Translations under genes and position numbers: made by a program
Notes under the pieces: generated by a model
The model's input: only the letters and a program-made list of their open reading frames with translations
Databases searched by the model: none
Told to the model about the DNA's origin: nothing
DNA from: Halorubrum rubrum
GTDB lineage: Archaea; Halobacteriota; Halobacteria; Halobacteriales; Haloferacaceae
Reading direction: 5' to 3'
Assembly (NCBI RefSeq): GCF_024494685.1
Contig: NZ_JANHDM010000001.1
Span: 310,001-374,000 of the forward strand
Length of the DNA stretch: 64,000 nucleotides
Shown: one piece after another, positions 2,456 through 20,472 of the stretch
Position numbering within the stretch: the first letter of the stretch is position 1
Layout: each line of letters starts with the position of its first letter

Positions 2456-3328
2456 TCACTCGTCGGCCGCCGGGACGTCCGGATGGTCCAGTCGCCGCGA
2501 GCGTCGAGCCAGCGCCGCACGGCGGTCCATCCACGACTCGTGGCGGACGAGGAAGACGACCGGCACGCGTTCGAGACCGAGGAGCTTCGCGACGGCCAGT
2601 CGATGCTTTCCACAGACCACCAGGAGGTCGCCGTCTCGACCGACGTCGACGGTCATCTCGTGACGGAGACAGTGACGGAACCCCACGTTCGGGTCGGTCC
2701 CCAGCCGCTGGCGCTGACTCCGGTACCCGTCGCGCTCGATACGCTCGTAGAGGTCGTCGAGATCCGCACAGCGACGGCGCACGTCCGCTTCCGTCCGGCA
2801 CTCGTGCCAGACGCGTTCCGGACTCGGCTCGGAGACGAGCCGGAGCGCTTCGCCCACCAGTTCCGTTTCCGCCCAGGGGACCCCGTCCTCGAAATGCGCC
2901 TCGAACGAGCGGTACAGCACGGAGTCCTCGAACGTCTCGCTCACGAAGAGGGACGCCGGCGGTCCCCCGTAGGTCGGGTCTTCCGGTGGGGCGTTCCGCA
3001 CGTCCCAGTCGCCCGACTGGACCGCCCCGAAGCGTTTCAGTCGGTCGCGGTACGGCGGGTACTCGCGTCGCGTGTGCCGACGGATCCGGTCCGGCGAGAC
3101 CCACTCGAGTCGGAACGGGTCGACGGGCGGGTCGTAGTCGGCCACGTCGTTCGCACACCGCCGTCGATAGTAACCGCTCGCGAGCCACCAGTGCAGTCGT
3201 GGGTGCAAGCGGGGACGGCTGATCGCGTACTCGAATCCGGTACGAAGCAGTTCTCTCACCCCCTTTTGGCGGTAGACGCTGGTCGCGGTCCGGAGGGCCC
3301 CGGACAGTGACCTGGCTTCGGTTGTCAT
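2456..3328 (-). CDS. ParB-like nuclease-fold haloarchaeal protein, copy B
   Basis: This 290-residue protein is a paralogue of the gene at 1643-2431. Shared landmarks in the same order are DPF...VSP near the start of the conserved part, a G-x-WD step, a W-x-ETEL step, DLYERIERDGYRSQ, a HE followed by DVGRDGD, and the ParB-like CGKHRLAVAKLLGL, ending in a VRHESW-type segment. Its N-terminus has MTTEARSLSGALRTATSVYR. Convergent with copy A and divergent, 18 bp away, from the decayed frame at 3347. The ParB-like motif suggests binding of DNA or a nucleotide, but the catalytic state and partner are not visible. Confidence 0.8.
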   Translation of the reverse strand: MTTEARSLSGALRTATSVYRQKGVRELLRTGFEYAISRPRLHPRLHWWLASGYYRRRCANDVADYDPPVDPFRLEWVSPDRIRRHTRREYPPYRDRLKRFGAVQSGDWDVRNAPPEDPTYGGPPASLFVSETFEDSVLYRSFEAHFEDGVPWAETELVGEALRLVSEPSPERVWHECRTEADVRRRCADLDDLYERIERDGYRSQRQRLGTDPNVGFRHCLRHEMTVDVGRDGDLLVVCGKHRLAVAKLLGLERVPVVFLVRHESWMDRRAALARRSRRLDHPDVPAADE

Positions 3329-3346
3329 ATCAACCGATTCGACGCC

Positions 3347-3710
3347 ATGACGACATTGTTACACAGCATCTACCGAGAGGTTCCGAGAGCGTCTTCGACC
3401 CCCGTGCTCGCGCGCACGACCGGAGACGTCCCCGGAGCCGCGGTCGAATCGGACTGTACAGTCACGCTCGCGCTGCCGGAGACCGGCCTCGCGGCGATCG
3501 GCGGCGACCTCCGGCTCGTCGACCTCTCGATCCCCTCGACGGTGTACGACCGTCTCGACGTCGAACACGCTCGACCGTTCGGGGGACGAGTTCGCGGTCC
3601 CGCTGTCGCAGCAACGCGAACGAGACGGCCGACCTCGCCGACCCGTTCGGGTTACCTCCGGCTCACCGGACCGTTATACCGTCCGATACGGTGTGATCGC
3701 ACATCGATGA
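3347..3710 (+). pseudogene. Decayed or frameshifted hypothetical gene
   Basis: From the ATG at 3347 about 78 codons look like haloarchaeal coding sequence (G/C third positions, acidic, ending YDRLDVEHARPFG). After the run of five G at 3581-3585 this frame becomes Arg/Pro/Thr-rich and shadow-like, while another frame turns coding-like (DEFAVPLSQQRERDGR) and runs to a TGA at 3708-3710. Removing one G would join the two parts. This is either a broken gene or a sequencing slip in a homopolymer. I do not recognise the product. Whether it was ever a gene is uncertain. Confidence 0.3.
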
Positions 3711-3977
3711 CACCAGTGATTGGTGACGTAGACGAACCGACGAGCGGGGGCGAGAGAATGGAGAAAACGGCGAAACGGACGGCCCGATGAGTTCGGTCAA
3801 CACCCGCGACCCCGAGCGGGTCGCGACGTGGAGCGATCTCGACGATCGAGAGCCCACACACGCCCGAGCGGCCGGCGTCGACCCGCCGGAAGGCTGTCGA
3901 GGACGGCACGCCGTACACGCCGGTATTCCGGTGGAGGACGAAAACGCGCCGTGTGTGACGACTTCGACTGAGGTAGA

Positions 3978-4048
3978 TGGGACCACCCGGATTCGAACCG
4001 GGGTCACGAGCACCCAAGGCTCGAAGTATACCACTAACCCATGGTCCC
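3978..4048 (-). tRNA. tRNA-Pro (anticodon UGG)
   Basis: Read on the minus strand the acceptor stem is GGGACCA pairing with TGGTCCC. The anticodon arm is CGAGC, loop CTTGGGT, GCTCG, which gives UGG with G37 after it, as expected for tRNA-Pro. The T arm is CCCGGTTCGAATCCGGG. The discriminator base is A and CCA is not encoded. No intron is visible. Apparent reading frames across this stretch are shadows. Confidence 0.93.
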
Positions 4049-4121
4049 GTGCCTCTTCCTACCGGGATGAACCGCTAAAGCGTTTCGTTCGGCGGGGAGG
4101 CTTCCGCGGCGATGACCGCGC

Positions 4122-5981
4122 CTAGACGCCCCAAAAGAACGCGATCCCGAGCGTCGTCACAACGGTCAACAGGAGCTGGAGGGGCGCGCCGAGCCGGAAG
4201 TAGTCCGTGAACGCGTAGCCGCCGGGGCCGTACACCATCAGGTTCGTCTGGTAGCCGATCGGCGTGAGCATCGCCGTCGACGCCGCGAACGTCACCGCGA
4301 GCACGAACGAGAACGGGTCGGCCCCGATCGCCTCCGCGGTGTCGACCGCGACCGGGACCATCAACACGACGCTCGCGTTGTTGCTGACGACGTTAGTGAC
4401 GACCGCCGTGAAGAGGTAGAAGAGCCCCAAGACGATCACTGGATCGAGCCCGCCGGAGGAGGCGACGACGACGGCCGCGAGCCACGCGGCCGCGCCCGTC
4501 CGCTCCATCGCGACGCCGAGCGGGATGAGCCCCGCGAGGAGGAATATCACGCTCCAGTCCACCGAGGAGTACATCTCGTTCGGCTTCACGCAGCCGGTCG
4601 CGACCATCGCGACGATCCCGCCGAGCGCGCTCACGAAGATGGGAACGACCTCCAGCGCGGCGAGCGCGACGACGACGGCGACGATCCCGATCGCGACCGG
4701 GATCTTCTCCGTCCGGAAGTCCGGGCGCGTGAGCCGACCGCCGACGACGAAGTTCCGGTCCTTGCCGAGCCGCCGGATCGTCTCCTCCGTCGCCTGGACG
4801 AGCAGGGTGTCGCCGGCCCGGAGGCGCCGCTCGTCCATCCGCGCGTGGATGACCCGCCCGCCGCGCCGGATCGCGAGCACGGTCGCGTCGTACCGGTCGC
4901 GGAAGTTCAGCGTCTCCAGCGTCTCGCCGACGAGCCGCGCCTCCGGGGAGACGATCACCTCGACGAGACTCTGTTCGGTCTCGAGTTCGGTCGTCTCCGC
5001 CTCGGTCGTGAGCTGCGCCTCCGCCACGTCGGCGTCGGGCGCGAGGTCGAGCCCGTCCACGTCGAGCAGCGTCATGAGGCTCTCGCGGTCCGTCCGCAAC
5101 ACCAGCACGTCGCCCTCGCGGAGCTCCTTCGGGCCGAGCGGCCCCGTGAACGTCCGGTCGTCGCGGACGAGCTGGACGATGTCGGCGTCGATATCGAGGG
5201 GTTCGAGGCCCTGGTTCACCGTCCGGCCGACGAGCGGCGAGTCGCCGCGGACGACCACCTCGGTCAGGTACTCCGTCATCCCGAACTCGTCCATCAGCTC
5301 GTCGTCGGTCCCGATCCGCTCGGGGAGCAGGTACGGTCCGACCGTCACGAGGTAGACGCCGCCGGTGAGCAACACGACGACGCCGAGCTTGGTGAACTCG
5401 AACATCGAGAAGGGGTGCCCGAGCAGGCGCGCGGAGACGTCCGAGGCGAGGACGTTCGTCGAGGTCCCGATGAGCGTCAACATCCCGCCGAGCATCGCCA
5501 TGAACGAGACGGGCATGAGCAGCTTCGAGGGCGACACGCCCGTCTTCTCGGAGATGGCGTTCACCATCGGGATCATGATGGCGACGACCGGCGTGTTGTT
5601 GATGAACCCCGCCGTCCCGCCGGCGAGCCCGAGCACCGCGAGCAGCTGTTTGTCGTGGCTGTCGCCGAAGCGGTCGGCGATCCACGCCCCGATCCCGTTG
5701 ACGAGGCCGGACTGCCGGATCCCCTCGCTGAGGACGAACATCGCGAGGACGGTCACCGTTGCGGAGCTGGAAAACCCGCCGACGCCGGTCGCGGGATCGA
5801 CCCGCGTCCACGGCTCGAGGGCGACGAGCGCGACCATCACGCCGATCGCGGTGACGTCTATCGGAATCGGGGCCGTAACGAAGAGAAGGAGCGCGACGGC
5901 GACGATCGCGAAGACGAGGAGGATCTCGGGGGTCAACGGCGGGAGGCTCGACCCGGCCTGTACTCCCCCGAGCGCGCTCAT
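4122..5981 (-). CDS. DASS/SLC13-family anion transporter with two TrkA-C (RCK_C) domains
   Basis: The 619-residue membrane protein begins with a hydrophobic block (LLVFAIVAVALLLFV) and contains the repeated transporter halves of the CitT/ArsB superfamily. N-terminal half signs are the GGFSSSATVTVLAMFVLSEG helix and a NNTPVVAIMIP loop; C-terminal half signs are VVTNVVSNNASVVLMVP and FAASTAMLTPIGYQTN. Between them, at about residues 235-300 and 335-400, lie two TrkA-C-like domains (each ending near GDVLVLR or GDTLLVQA). This architecture is the SAC1/YfbS type, used for sulfate, dicarboxylates or other anions, usually with Na+. The substrate cannot be assigned. It stands alone between tRNA-Pro and the helicase gene, which is on the same strand. 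Confidence 0.9.
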   Translation of the reverse strand: MSALGGVQAGSSLPPLTPEILLVFAIVAVALLLFVTAPIPIDVTAIGVMVALVALEPWTRVDPATGVGGFSSSATVTVLAMFVLSEGIRQSGLVNGIGAWIADRFGDSHDKQLLAVLGLAGGTAGFINNTPVVAIMIPMVNAISEKTGVSPSKLLMPVSFMAMLGGMLTLIGTSTNVLASDVSARLLGHPFSMFEFTKLGVVVLLTGGVYLVTVGPYLLPERIGTDDELMDEFGMTEYLTEVVVRGDSPLVGRTVNQGLEPLDIDADIVQLVRDDRTFTGPLGPKELREGDVLVLRTDRESLMTLLDVDGLDLAPDADVAEAQLTTEAETTELETEQSLVEVIVSPEARLVGETLETLNFRDRYDATVLAIRRGGRVIHARMDERRLRAGDTLLVQATEETIRRLGKDRNFVVGGRLTRPDFRTEKIPVAIGIVAVVVALAALEVVPIFVSALGGIVAMVATGCVKPNEMYSSVDWSVIFLLAGLIPLGVAMERTGAAAWLAAVVVASSGGLDPVIVLGLFYLFTAVVTNVVSNNASVVLMVPVAVDTAEAIGADPFSFVLAVTFAASTAMLTPIGYQTNLMVYGPGGYAFTDYFRLGAPLQLLLTVVTTLGIAFFWGV

Positions 5982-14686: not shown

Positions 14687-15196
14687 CGATCCGGGGTAGC
14701 GCCGACGGGACCATAATACCCCGACTCGACGTCGGCGCGGAGATCCGCGTCCGCCGAACGCGTCGGAACGGGAGACTTCGCGGTCGGCGCGCGCCGTGAG
14801 CGGCCCGTCGGGCCGCGAACGACCCGCGCGAGGGAGGTCGAGGCGACCCGCCGGCGGTTTCGGCGGGTCGGCGAGACCGAGGCTGGGGAAGCGTGAGGTG
14901 CGGGTGCGTTCCCGCGAGCGCAGCGAGCGGGAGCACGGGAGTCGCAGCCCGCGCAGCGAACGAAGTGAGCGCAGGACCGTCTTCCGGTGGTGCTTGGCGG
15001 GTGGAACTCGAAGGGGCAGCCGGGAGGCGGGGACTTCGACCGTGTTCACCGCGCCAGCAACGACGTACAGTCGAGCGGCCAGGTCGTCAAATGGCTCGCT
15101 TCGGAACCGACGCTCGCGACGCTCGGACCGGATCCTTCCCGATCGATCCCCGCCAACAGCGTTATTCCCGGCGAACGCCTACCGCTTCCACCGACA
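14687..15196. other. Intergenic stretch with a possible dispersed repeat
   Basis: No gene is supported in these 510 bases. At about 14890-15060 are short imperfect palindromes and repeats built on GCGAGCGCAGCGAGCG and GCGAACGAAGTGAGCGC, followed by a block containing GGGTGGAACTCGAAGGGG. Similar GAGCG-rich blocks occur in many haloarchaeal intergenic regions, from memory, and one also lies beside tRNA-Lys here (GCAGTGAGCGAAGCGAGC). Frames across it are Arg/Ser-rich shadows. Confidence 0.4.
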
Positions 15197-18682: not shown

Positions 18683-19354
18683 ATGGACGAGCAGTCACGC
18701 GCCGACCGGCGGTCCCCGGTCGGCGAGCCCGTCGTTCGCTCTGACCCGGCGGTCACCGGCGAGCGCGCGGCCGAGGCGGTGGGGTTCGACCCCGACGATC
18801 CCGAGAGCGTCGCCGAGGCCGCGGAGACGGTCCGTCGCTTCGCGTCGGGCGACGTCGGCGACGACGACCACGTGTTGATGCTGCGCGGAGCCGCCGCCTG
18901 TGCGGCGCTGGTTCGCGGCGTCGGCTCCTACAAGGAGGCCGCAGCCCGCGCCGGTGACGGGGTCACCGTCGCGTTCATCCGCAAGTGGGCGCGGGTTCAC
19001 GACCTGCCCCAAGCCATCCGGCGTCAGGTCGCCCGCGGGTACATCACGCCGAGCGCGGCCAAACACGTCGCGCGGCTCGCGGGGACCGACCGGTACCGCC
19101 TCGCGTGGGCCGCCATCGACGGCGACATGACCGTCCGGGAGGTCCGCTCCGTCGCCTCCGCGGTCAACGACGGCGACGACGTGACCGACGCGGCGAGGGA
19201 GGTCGGCGTCCATCTCGGTCGGATCGACCTCGATCTCCCGACCGAGACGTACGTCGAGCTCCGGCGGCGGGCCGCGATGCGGAACGTCGATCCGGGCGCG
19301 ATCGTCGCGGCCGCGCTGGAGGACCACTTCGCGTCGTCGCCGGCGGAGGAGTAG
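18683..19354 (+). CDS. ParB/HTH-like haloarchaeal protein (DUF7119-like)
   Basis: 223 residues. The N-terminal part is acidic (RADRRSPVGEPVVRSDPAV); the centre holds KEAAARAGDGVTVAFIRKWARVHDLP, a helix-turn-helix-like segment, then RRQVARGYITPSAAKHVARLAG, which resembles the HTH core of ParB (ITxGHAR-like), and VREVRSVASAVNDG. The C-terminus DLDLPTETYVELRRRAAMRNVDPGAIVAAAL has the pattern of a ribbon-helix-helix domain. Two DNA-binding modules make a regulator likely. It is conserved in haloarchaea from memory. It lies just upstream of tRNA-Lys. Confidence 0.85.
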   Translation: MDEQSRADRRSPVGEPVVRSDPAVTGERAAEAVGFDPDDPESVAEAAETVRRFASGDVGDDDHVLMLRGAAACAALVRGVGSYKEAAARAGDGVTVAFIRKWARVHDLPQAIRRQVARGYITPSAAKHVARLAGTDRYRLAWAAIDGDMTVREVRSVASAVNDGDDVTDAAREVGVHLGRIDLDLPTETYVELRRRAAMRNVDPGAIVAAALEDHFASSPAEE

Positions 19355-19412
19355 CCGCCGAGTCCTGCCGTTTCTAAACGTTTATCCGTGGTCTGGTCGT
19401 ACCCGGTGACGC

Positions 19413-19486
19413 GGGCCGGTAGCTCAGTTAGGGAGAGCGTCCGGCTTTTAACCGGACGGTCGGGGGTTCGAATCCCTCCCGGCCCG
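19413..19486 (+). tRNA. tRNA-Lys (anticodon UUU)
   Basis: Acceptor GGGCCGG pairs with CCGGCCC, discriminator G, no encoded CCA. The anticodon arm is TCCGG, loop CTTTTAA, CCGGA, giving UUU. The T arm is GGGGG-TTCGAAT-CCCTC with one G-U pair. Its 3' end (last 22 bases, from GGTTCGAATCC) is repeated twice downstream. Confidence 0.95.
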
Positions 19487-19734
19487 TACACTGAACCGCC
19501 GAGCGAGAGCGAGGCGGTGAGGGAACCGGCAGGAGGGATTCGAAGAGACCAGTCGCGCGCAGTGAGCGAAGCGAGCACGTCCGGACGTGGTTCGAATCCC
19601 TCCCGGCCCGTACACTGAACCGCCGAGCGAGAGCGAGGCGGTGAGGGAACCGGCAGGAGGGATTCGAAGAGACCAGTCGCGCGCAGTGAGCGAAGCGAGC
19701 ACGTCCGGACGTGGTTCGAATCCCTCCCGGCCCG
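19487..19734. repeat. Two 124-bp tandem units, each ending in a copy of the tRNA-Lys 3' end
   Basis: The 124 bases 19487-19610 are repeated at 19611-19734. Each unit begins TACACTGAACCGCC (second-copy boundary likewise) and ends with 22 bases identical to the 3' end of tRNA-Lys (GGTTCGAATCCCTCC and on to GGCCCG). Inside each unit lies an inverted copy, GGAGGGATTCGAA, so hairpins can form with the tRNA-derived tail. Duplicated tRNA 3' ends are typical of attachment sites for tyrosine-recombinase elements; no integrase is seen here. Confidence 0.9.
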
Positions 19735-19815
19735 CTGTTCCGCCGCGAGCAACGTCGCGAGCGGCGGGGTTAGTTGGTCGAAAACACGAAAAGCGGTAGA
19801 GTTCGCAGGCGTCGT

Positions 19816-20472
19816 TCAGTACCCGAGCTGCTCGCGCACGAGCACGATCGTCGTCCGGTCCTCCTCGGTCTCCCGGCGGTAGATCAGCTGTTTGGCGATC
19901 GCGGACTCGACGCCGTACGCCTCCTGGGCGCGCTCGTTCTCCAGCGGATACGCGACCGACTCCAGGCGGTCGAGGGCGTCATCGAGCGTCGGGACGACCT
20001 TGTTCGTGCCGGAGACGATGATCACGTTGCCGGCGGCGAACGGATACGCGCCGATCCGACTGCCGGAGAGGTCGGCGGCGACGAGTTCGCCGGTCCGGGC
20101 GATGGCGTTGATCCCGCCGAGGAAGTAGTCCGCGGTCTGTGCCTCGCGTCGCGCGGCCTGCCGTTCGGCGTCGTCGTCGATGCGCCAGATCTCGTCCGGG
20201 AGGCTCTCCCACTCGTGATCATCCCCTCCGAGGAACTCGTCGAAGCCGATCTCCTCGAGCGTCGTCGAGTGGCCGTTCATCACGGAGACGCCCGCGGGGA
20301 TCCGCTCTGTGACCGCCTCGAGCGCCGCCTCGGCGTCGTCGACGACCACCACGTCGAACCCGCGCTCCTCCAGGTTCGCGACCGTCGCCTCGACGGTCTC
20401 CGCGTCCGGGAGGTCGTCCAACTCCGCGTCGATCTCGGCCTCGTCTACGTAGTCCGCCTTCTGTTGTGCCAT
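19816..20472 (-). CDS. LUD-domain protein (LutC-like)
   Basis: 218 residues with the LUD (lactate utilisation protein) domain: GFDVVVVDDAEAAL, IPAGVSVMNGHSTTLEEIG, QTADYFLGGINAIARTGE and LSGSRIGAYPFAAGNVIIVSG. In bacteria LutB/LutC-type proteins join an FeS enzyme in L-lactate oxidation; single LUD proteins in haloarchaea have no proven role. A TATA-like ATTAAGTG (minus strand, 20517-20524) lies about 45 bp before the ATG. No lutA/lutB partner is adjacent. Confidence 0.9.
   Translation of the reverse strand: MAQQKADYVDEAEIDAELDDLPDAETVEATVANLEERGFDVVVVDDAEAALEAVTERIPAGVSVMNGHSTTLEEIGFDEFLGGDDHEWESLPDEIWRIDDDAERQAARREAQTADYFLGGINAIARTGELVAADLSGSRIGAYPFAAGNVIIVSGTNKVVPTLDDALDRLESVAYPLENERAQEAYGVESAIAKQLIYRRETEEDRTTIVLVREQLGY

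Follow-up and report, generated by a model that had tools for sequence, protein, structure and literature searches.

The tRNA-Lys locus and its tandem units

The stretch of the Halorubrum rubrum genome that was analyzed (64,000 nucleotides, positions 310,001 to 374,000 of contig NZ_JANHDM010000001.1; hereafter the window) contains a tRNA-Lys(TTT) gene that is directly followed by two tandem units of 124 bp (Table 1). This arrangement had been predicted from the sequence, and its coordinates were confirmed by RF00005 and ARAGORN for the gene, and by TRF and repeat comparison for the units. TRF reported a single array (19465-19734, period 124, 2.2 copies, 100% match), in which GGTTCGAATCCCTCCCGGCCCG is found in three copies at 19465, 19589, and 19713, with a spacing of 124. 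The repeat had been described as nearly perfect; it is in fact perfect, as the units 19465-19588 and 19589-19712 are identical at 124 of 124 bases, with the copy number taken as it stands in the draft assembly. A further small correction is that the first unit overlaps the last 22 bases of the tRNA gene itself. An inverted copy in each unit, also part of the original prediction, was recovered as inverted GGAGGGATTCGAA.

The array is flanked by a DUF7119 gene (18683-19354) and a gene for a LUD-domain protein (19816-20472, minus strand), and no integrase gene adjoins it; the 124-bp units leave no room for coding and carry no integrase of their own. When the array was compared with Rfam 15, only the tRNA itself scored above the gathering threshold, all else being sub-threshold matches even at a relaxed threshold, while the matches listed from phage and plasmid collections were ordinary tRNA matches, none of which covered 80% of the query. 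A strong G.A-type hairpin, GTTCCCGCGAGCGCAGCGAGCGGGAGC, is also present in the window at 14908-14934, away from any tRNA.

Table 1. Coordinates of the features at the tRNA-Lys locus (positions in the window)
Feature	Position	Strand	Support or remark
tRNA-Lys(TTT) gene	19413-19486	+	Rfam RF00005, 70.6 bits; ARAGORN 19412-19487; its final 22 bases form the first tail
Unit 1, 124 bp (tail, hairpin 1, inverted T-arm, S2)	19465-19588	+	Repeat comparison, TRF
Unit 2, 124 bp, equal to unit 1 base for base	19589-19712	+	Repeat comparison, TRF
Third tail copy	19713-19734	+	Matches the tRNA 3' end at 22/22 bases
Hairpin 1 of unit 1	19495-19518	+	ACCGCC-GA-GC-GAGA-GC-GA-GGCGGT, tandem G.A in the stem
Hairpin 1 of unit 2	19619-19642	+	
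Inverted T-arm (R'') of unit 1, inverted GGAGGGATTCGAA	19532-19544	-	Cognate covariation
Inverted T-arm (R'') of unit 2, inverted GGAGGGATTCGAA	19656-19668	-	
R''-S2-R' imperfect palindrome	19534-19601	+	Model R1, E 4.0e-12 (G000:C11:329534-329601); DNA fold z = -6.0
Second R''-S2-R' palindrome	19658-19725	+	Model R1, E 4.0e-12
Older unit, reduced to its hairpin 1 (allele B)	19735-19770	+	Same unit whole beside the tRNA in relative G049

Cognate tail copies and the anatomy of the units

All or most tRNA genes of four haloarchaeal genomes were located with RF00005, and the 600 nt downstream of each gene were searched for a copy of its own tail (≤ 2 mismatches in 19). At least one cognate copy was present behind 8 of 44 tRNA genes in the genome of the window, 19 of 44 in G026, 11 of 28 in G078, and 8 of 28 in G081. 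These copies are not due to chance, because they were found behind 46 of the 144 genes vs. 4 of 4610 non-cognate comparisons. In the 77 unit-bearing loci the copied block reaches from G52/G53 at the T-loop as far as N73, the discriminator base, with sharp edges on both sides, the identity between tRNA and copy being 90-100% from position -2 to N73 and at background level outside; no mismatch over 19 bases was present in 59 of the 77 copies, and the units are mostly 112-155 bp long. The tail copies do not contain the 5' half of the tRNA, and the suggestion that such repeats produce tRNA-like decoys found no support.

The modules follow one another in a fixed order, with hairpin 1, the inverted T-arm (R''), and the second hairpin (S2) lying between two tails. 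R'' is complementary to the T-loop and the 3' T-stem of its own tRNA, and at variable loop positions it agrees with the cognate tRNA in 93% of cases vs. 51% for non-cognate ones (fourth T-loop base), or 95% vs. 74%. An inverted copy of the full tail was also considered and rejected, as the cognate signal is confined to the T-arm and the acceptor part stays at background. Tandem G.A pairs are frequent in the hairpin stems.

The tail, hairpin 1, and the inverted tail together form one long imperfect palindrome, as would be expected if replication slippage or template switching at palindromes had, separately at each tRNA, produced the copies in both inverted and direct orientation, and the second unit in the window, a perfect tandem duplicate, fits the same process. 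However, the sharp edges at T54 and N73 call for a specific process and the same S2 modules recur at unrelated tRNAs, so that we consider such an origin very improbable for the units as a class, even though the second identical unit in the window could have arisen by tandem duplication alone. The original prediction that the repeat is recent is right for this duplication and wrong for the kind of element, whose modules are conserved throughout the class.

Two other types of sequence were observed behind tRNA genes. Tandem 87-bp pyrimidine-rich repeats lie behind a tRNA-Ala(CGC) gene (L220, 6101-6668), where just the acceptor end is copied and the module is of another type, and a palindromic insert (GTCGCACCC...GGGTGCGAC TGACCCACGC...GCGTGG and variants) interrupts distal tRNA-Lys tail copies of several members of the genus (L309, L315, L316, L025, and L027).

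A hairpin module shared by the haloarchaea

The S2-a type of hairpin S2, with the core AGTCGCGCGCAG ... GAGCACGTCTG, was detected by a pattern scan of GTDB genomes in at least 119 loci. Among the S2 matches listed (n = 125), 107 have a tRNA on the same strand at most 900 nt upstream and 106 are directly followed by T-arm sequence; the titles of those listed are haloarchaeal with one exception, a MAG labelled Bacteroidetes. On that contig (L170, PXTT01000074.1, Bacteroidetes bacterium QS_9_68_14), which was probably misbinned, a tRNA-Val of haloarchaeal type is followed by a unit in the same arrangement. Viral contigs gave no S2 match with three patterns, S2-a and S2-b among them.

An alignment of 59 R''-S2-R' sequences with a named structure (A1) had 92.3% paired cells, with changes on both sides at 11 pairs. 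Double-change cells numbered 118 vs. 44 ± 6 in shuffles, the covariation score was 0.198 vs. 0.105, and slid versions of the structure were paired in 15-37%. The T.T and C.A mismatches are invariant in A1, but these bases were fixed by the search pattern. A covariance model of the S2-a type (R1) had matches in 188 of the 194 Halobacteria genomes (one genome per species), while in a phylum-wide sample it was found in 31 of 197 genomes, all belonging to one order, and in none of the 164 outside the class. In the four genomes, 34 of the 35 R1 matches at E ≤ 1e-9 have a tRNA 27-700 nt upstream on their own strand, mostly at 27-73 nt. The sole exception, in the genome of the window (C20:204156), lies behind the 3' half of a tRNA-Gly(TCC) at the end of an island. 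There, a full unit follows the partial tRNA (G000:C20:204156-204228; L005, L329, L361), and the region is likely the distal end of an island whose integration separated the array from its tRNA.

The hairpins could also be the 3' trailer of the tRNA transcript (a terminator, a processing signal, or a small RNA) that was tandemly duplicated and kept for its function as RNA. Their constant location on the tRNA strand, mostly within the short distance given above, would agree with it, as would the covarying stem, the tandem G.A pairs, and an excess of G-U over A-C cells (44 vs. 27). On the other hand, the exact repeat of the acceptor strand up to N73 would be left unexplained since pairing is limited to the T-arm part, many tRNAs within one genome have no unit at all, related modules occur in non-functional tRNA remnants, and the folding energies of sense and antisense strands are nearly equal. 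The argument about which strand folds draws only on the tandem G.A pairs and the G-U counts; the C-A mismatch, which is invariant, suggests the opposite. An RNA function is therefore an unlikely reason for the arrays.

Variation of the arrays between species

The other sampled members of the genus have differing versions of the array at tRNA-Lys. Across 45 tRNA-Lys(TTT) loci we counted between 0 and 6 downstream tail-like copies, and 20 of the 30 pairings that the hairpin-1 and S2 classes allow; the number, order, and module combination of the units vary between species (one genome per species). In G049, whose aligned sequence is approximately 92% identical, and in G018, CTGTTCCG... stands directly after the tRNA tail, whereas in the window it comes after the third tail. 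These two relatives, which lack both units, thus join the tRNA tail to the sequence behind the array, and the two units of the window are therefore extra; they adjoin the tRNA and are followed by an older, truncated unit. The arrays are also polar, as tails at tRNA-Lys loci are perfect in 13 of 19 inner copies and in 10 of 32 last ones. Since arrays of this kind also occur in single-contig relatives (e.g., four identical 111-bp units in G026), they are in general unlikely to be a product of misassembly.

Integrases and islands at the same tRNA genes

The tRNA ends that carry unit arrays are also used by integrase-bearing islands. In L358, a tRNA-Tyr is followed by approximately 4.6 kb that end in a tyrosine-integrase gene (PHROG integrase); the right end of this element contains the remnant of a tRNA whose T-loop encloses hairpins, and the adjoining unit of about 120 bp resembles the left and right ends of the element joined together. 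Related hairpin pairs between the T-stem and the T-loop of island-end tRNA remnants, near the starts of integrase genes, were recognized by eye in L362, L370, L371, L374, L375, L376, L378, and L379, and an intact T-arm at the same place in the related islands L365, L367, and L386. An automatic classification of attR sites gave 27 intact, 12 interrupted, and 33 without a call of either kind, false calls included (e.g., L366, L398, L429), and the cases cited here are those read by eye. Relatives of the L358 integrase were detected at E ≤ 1e-30 in 179 of the 194 Halobacteria genomes, and the six genomes without R1 have 1, 1, 0, 1, 0, and 2 of them. Conversely, 13 of the 188 R1-bearing genomes, including G167 with 23 R1 copies and G050 with 20, have no match at this threshold, therefore another enzyme or old insertions must be allowed for.

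If the tails were leftover attachment sites of ordinary islands that integrated and were later deleted, no element of its own would be needed. Integrase islands do enter the same tRNAs and displace the arrays there (L229, L358, L359; a displaced unit is found at the island end in L361, in the genome of the window), and the L358 unit looks like the joined ends of its element. Independent deletions would nevertheless not be expected to leave the same covarying S2 hairpin at many tRNA types in 188 species, nor units of such tight length, and we regard plain scars as decidedly improbable. The original prediction, which spoke of stacked attachment sites left by repeated integration and loss, is partly supported. 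Stacked attachment sites are largely right, given the block from T-loop to N73, which is just what an integrase targeting a tRNA has to restore, the variation between species, the lack of the two units in close relatives, and the tRNA ends common to islands and arrays, but the covarying hairpin modules conserved across the class and at many tRNA types speak against mere scars of lost large elements.

Another possibility is that the 22-base tail is a target that was duplicated when an insertion of the CRISPR or casposon type took place at the end of the tRNA, in keeping with the sharp repeat of fixed length at both ends and with additions near the tRNA while distal repeats decay. Yet the inserts in island-end tRNA remnants lack a 20-base duplication and show just about GT (L374, L375, L379), terminal inverted repeats were not seen by eye, and the inverted T-arm is cognate, unlike a generic insert; we give hardly any credence to this origin. 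As the remnant inserts have no 20-base duplication, selection for rebuilding the tRNA 3' end is the best explanation of the long tails that follow working tRNAs. The rule for the duplication of tRNA ends would then be selection for a functional tRNA rather than target duplication.

Proposed mechanism

RNA function, plain scars, target duplication, and slippage are all weaker rivals of the reading that we prefer and hold to be reasonably probable, namely that the units are gene-less, hairpin-bearing attachment-site cassettes of a tyrosine recombination that targets the T-loop, and that those in the window are the newest members of the array behind their tRNA. The minimal element would consist of the tRNA tail (T54-N73), hairpin 1, the inverted T-arm, and hairpin S2, and would enter by site-specific recombination with the crossover at the T-loop (G53|T54). 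The enzymes acting in trans would most likely be tyrosine recombinases from the integrase family that also brings larger islands into tRNA T-arms in these genomes. A unit entering a working tRNA would have to supply a cognate tail to keep the gene functional; every entry would therefore add one tail, so new units would come to lie beside the tRNA and old ones would be pushed downstream and decay. Hairpin 1 and S2 could then be reshuffled, and the number of copies altered, by tandem duplication as well as by recombination that involves tails and inverted T-arms. An enzyme, an excised intermediate, the folded strand as its substrate, and a benefit for the host are what we infer, and R''-S2-R' may act as a folded single strand. 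Points against the proposal are that no integrase adjoins the array, that 13 R1-bearing genomes have no match to the L358 integrase, that viral contigs gave no S2 match, and that a double-stranded circle of 110-150 bp would be very strained.

Comparison with known systems

The attC sites of integrons are imperfect palindromes with an inverted outer core pair, an unpaired spacer, an inner stem, conserved mismatches, and a variable terminal loop, and integrons build heterogeneous cassette arrays by additions beside a fixed site. R''-S2-R' has this layout of an attC-like imperfect palindrome, with covarying arms, and the arrays behind tRNAs are likewise heterogeneous, with additions beside a fixed site. 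In contrast to integrons, the fixed site of the units is the tRNA T-arm, the modules are mostly gene-less, a dedicated integrase is missing from the neighbourhood, and a cognate tail is required; the integrases found elsewhere were only distantly XerC/XerA-like and far below the cut-off. We raise as a tentative and rather doubtful possibility that haloarchaea have an integron-like system, in which tRNA T-arms serve as the fixed site for gene-less and rarely gene-bearing (e.g., toxin-antitoxin) cassettes, a family of tyrosine recombinases recognizes a hairpin site folded from a single strand, and selection on the tRNA forces cognate ends.

CRISPR arrays are repeat-spaced, grow at the leader side, and have decayed distal repeats, and casposons can use tRNA 3' ends. 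The units share with them the repeat-spaced array, addition at one side, and distal decay, and differ in that no 20 bases are duplicated where related modules are inserted in tRNA remnants. Archaeal elements mobilized by tyrosine recombinases cross over in a tRNA stem-loop and rebuild the 3' end, leaving a direct repeat up to the mature 3' end (PMC8371274). The block of identity from a tRNA stem-loop to the 3' end is common to these integrative elements and the units, whereas the units have neither gene nor integrase, measure 110-150 bp, form stacks of up to four or more, and carry hairpin modules that are class-wide and independent of tRNA identity. In Haloquadratum, SMRs target palindromes without target duplication, IS605-type elements and PATEs serving as targets (PMC3119063); these SMR, MITE, and PATE repeats resemble the units in being about 110 bp long, palindromic, and non-coding, but they are scattered, while the units sit at tRNA tails and have tRNA-specific ends.

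The literature search was confined to open-access papers, subscription papers being outside its scope, and returned no account of such arrays; this class of repeats, which accompanies a large part of the tRNA genes in nearly every haloarchaeon, thus seems undescribed in the open-access literature searched. If the units recombine as proposed, they would be among the smallest site-specific mobile units, would account for part of the repeat-rich DNA that flanks tRNAs in haloarchaeal genomes, and would offer an archaeal test case of hairpin-site recombination, hitherto a hallmark of bacterial integrons.

Candidate gene-bearing units

Gene cassettes as a rule were considered and rejected: an automatic scan returned 16 intervals, whose distal matches were mostly located inside genes and due to chance, and two candidates were left. 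In Salinigranum salinum (L203, reverse complement 4231-5820), a HicA-type gene and its DUF7387 partner are enclosed by tRNA-Ala-type tail copies, with a second, diverged copy of the pair in tandem. In L161 (reverse complement 3289-5100), a nucleotidyltransferase (MNT-like) gene lies between a tRNA-Ala(GGC) and its unit, and the same interval contains an HEPN-like neighbour of this gene that had no Pfam match.
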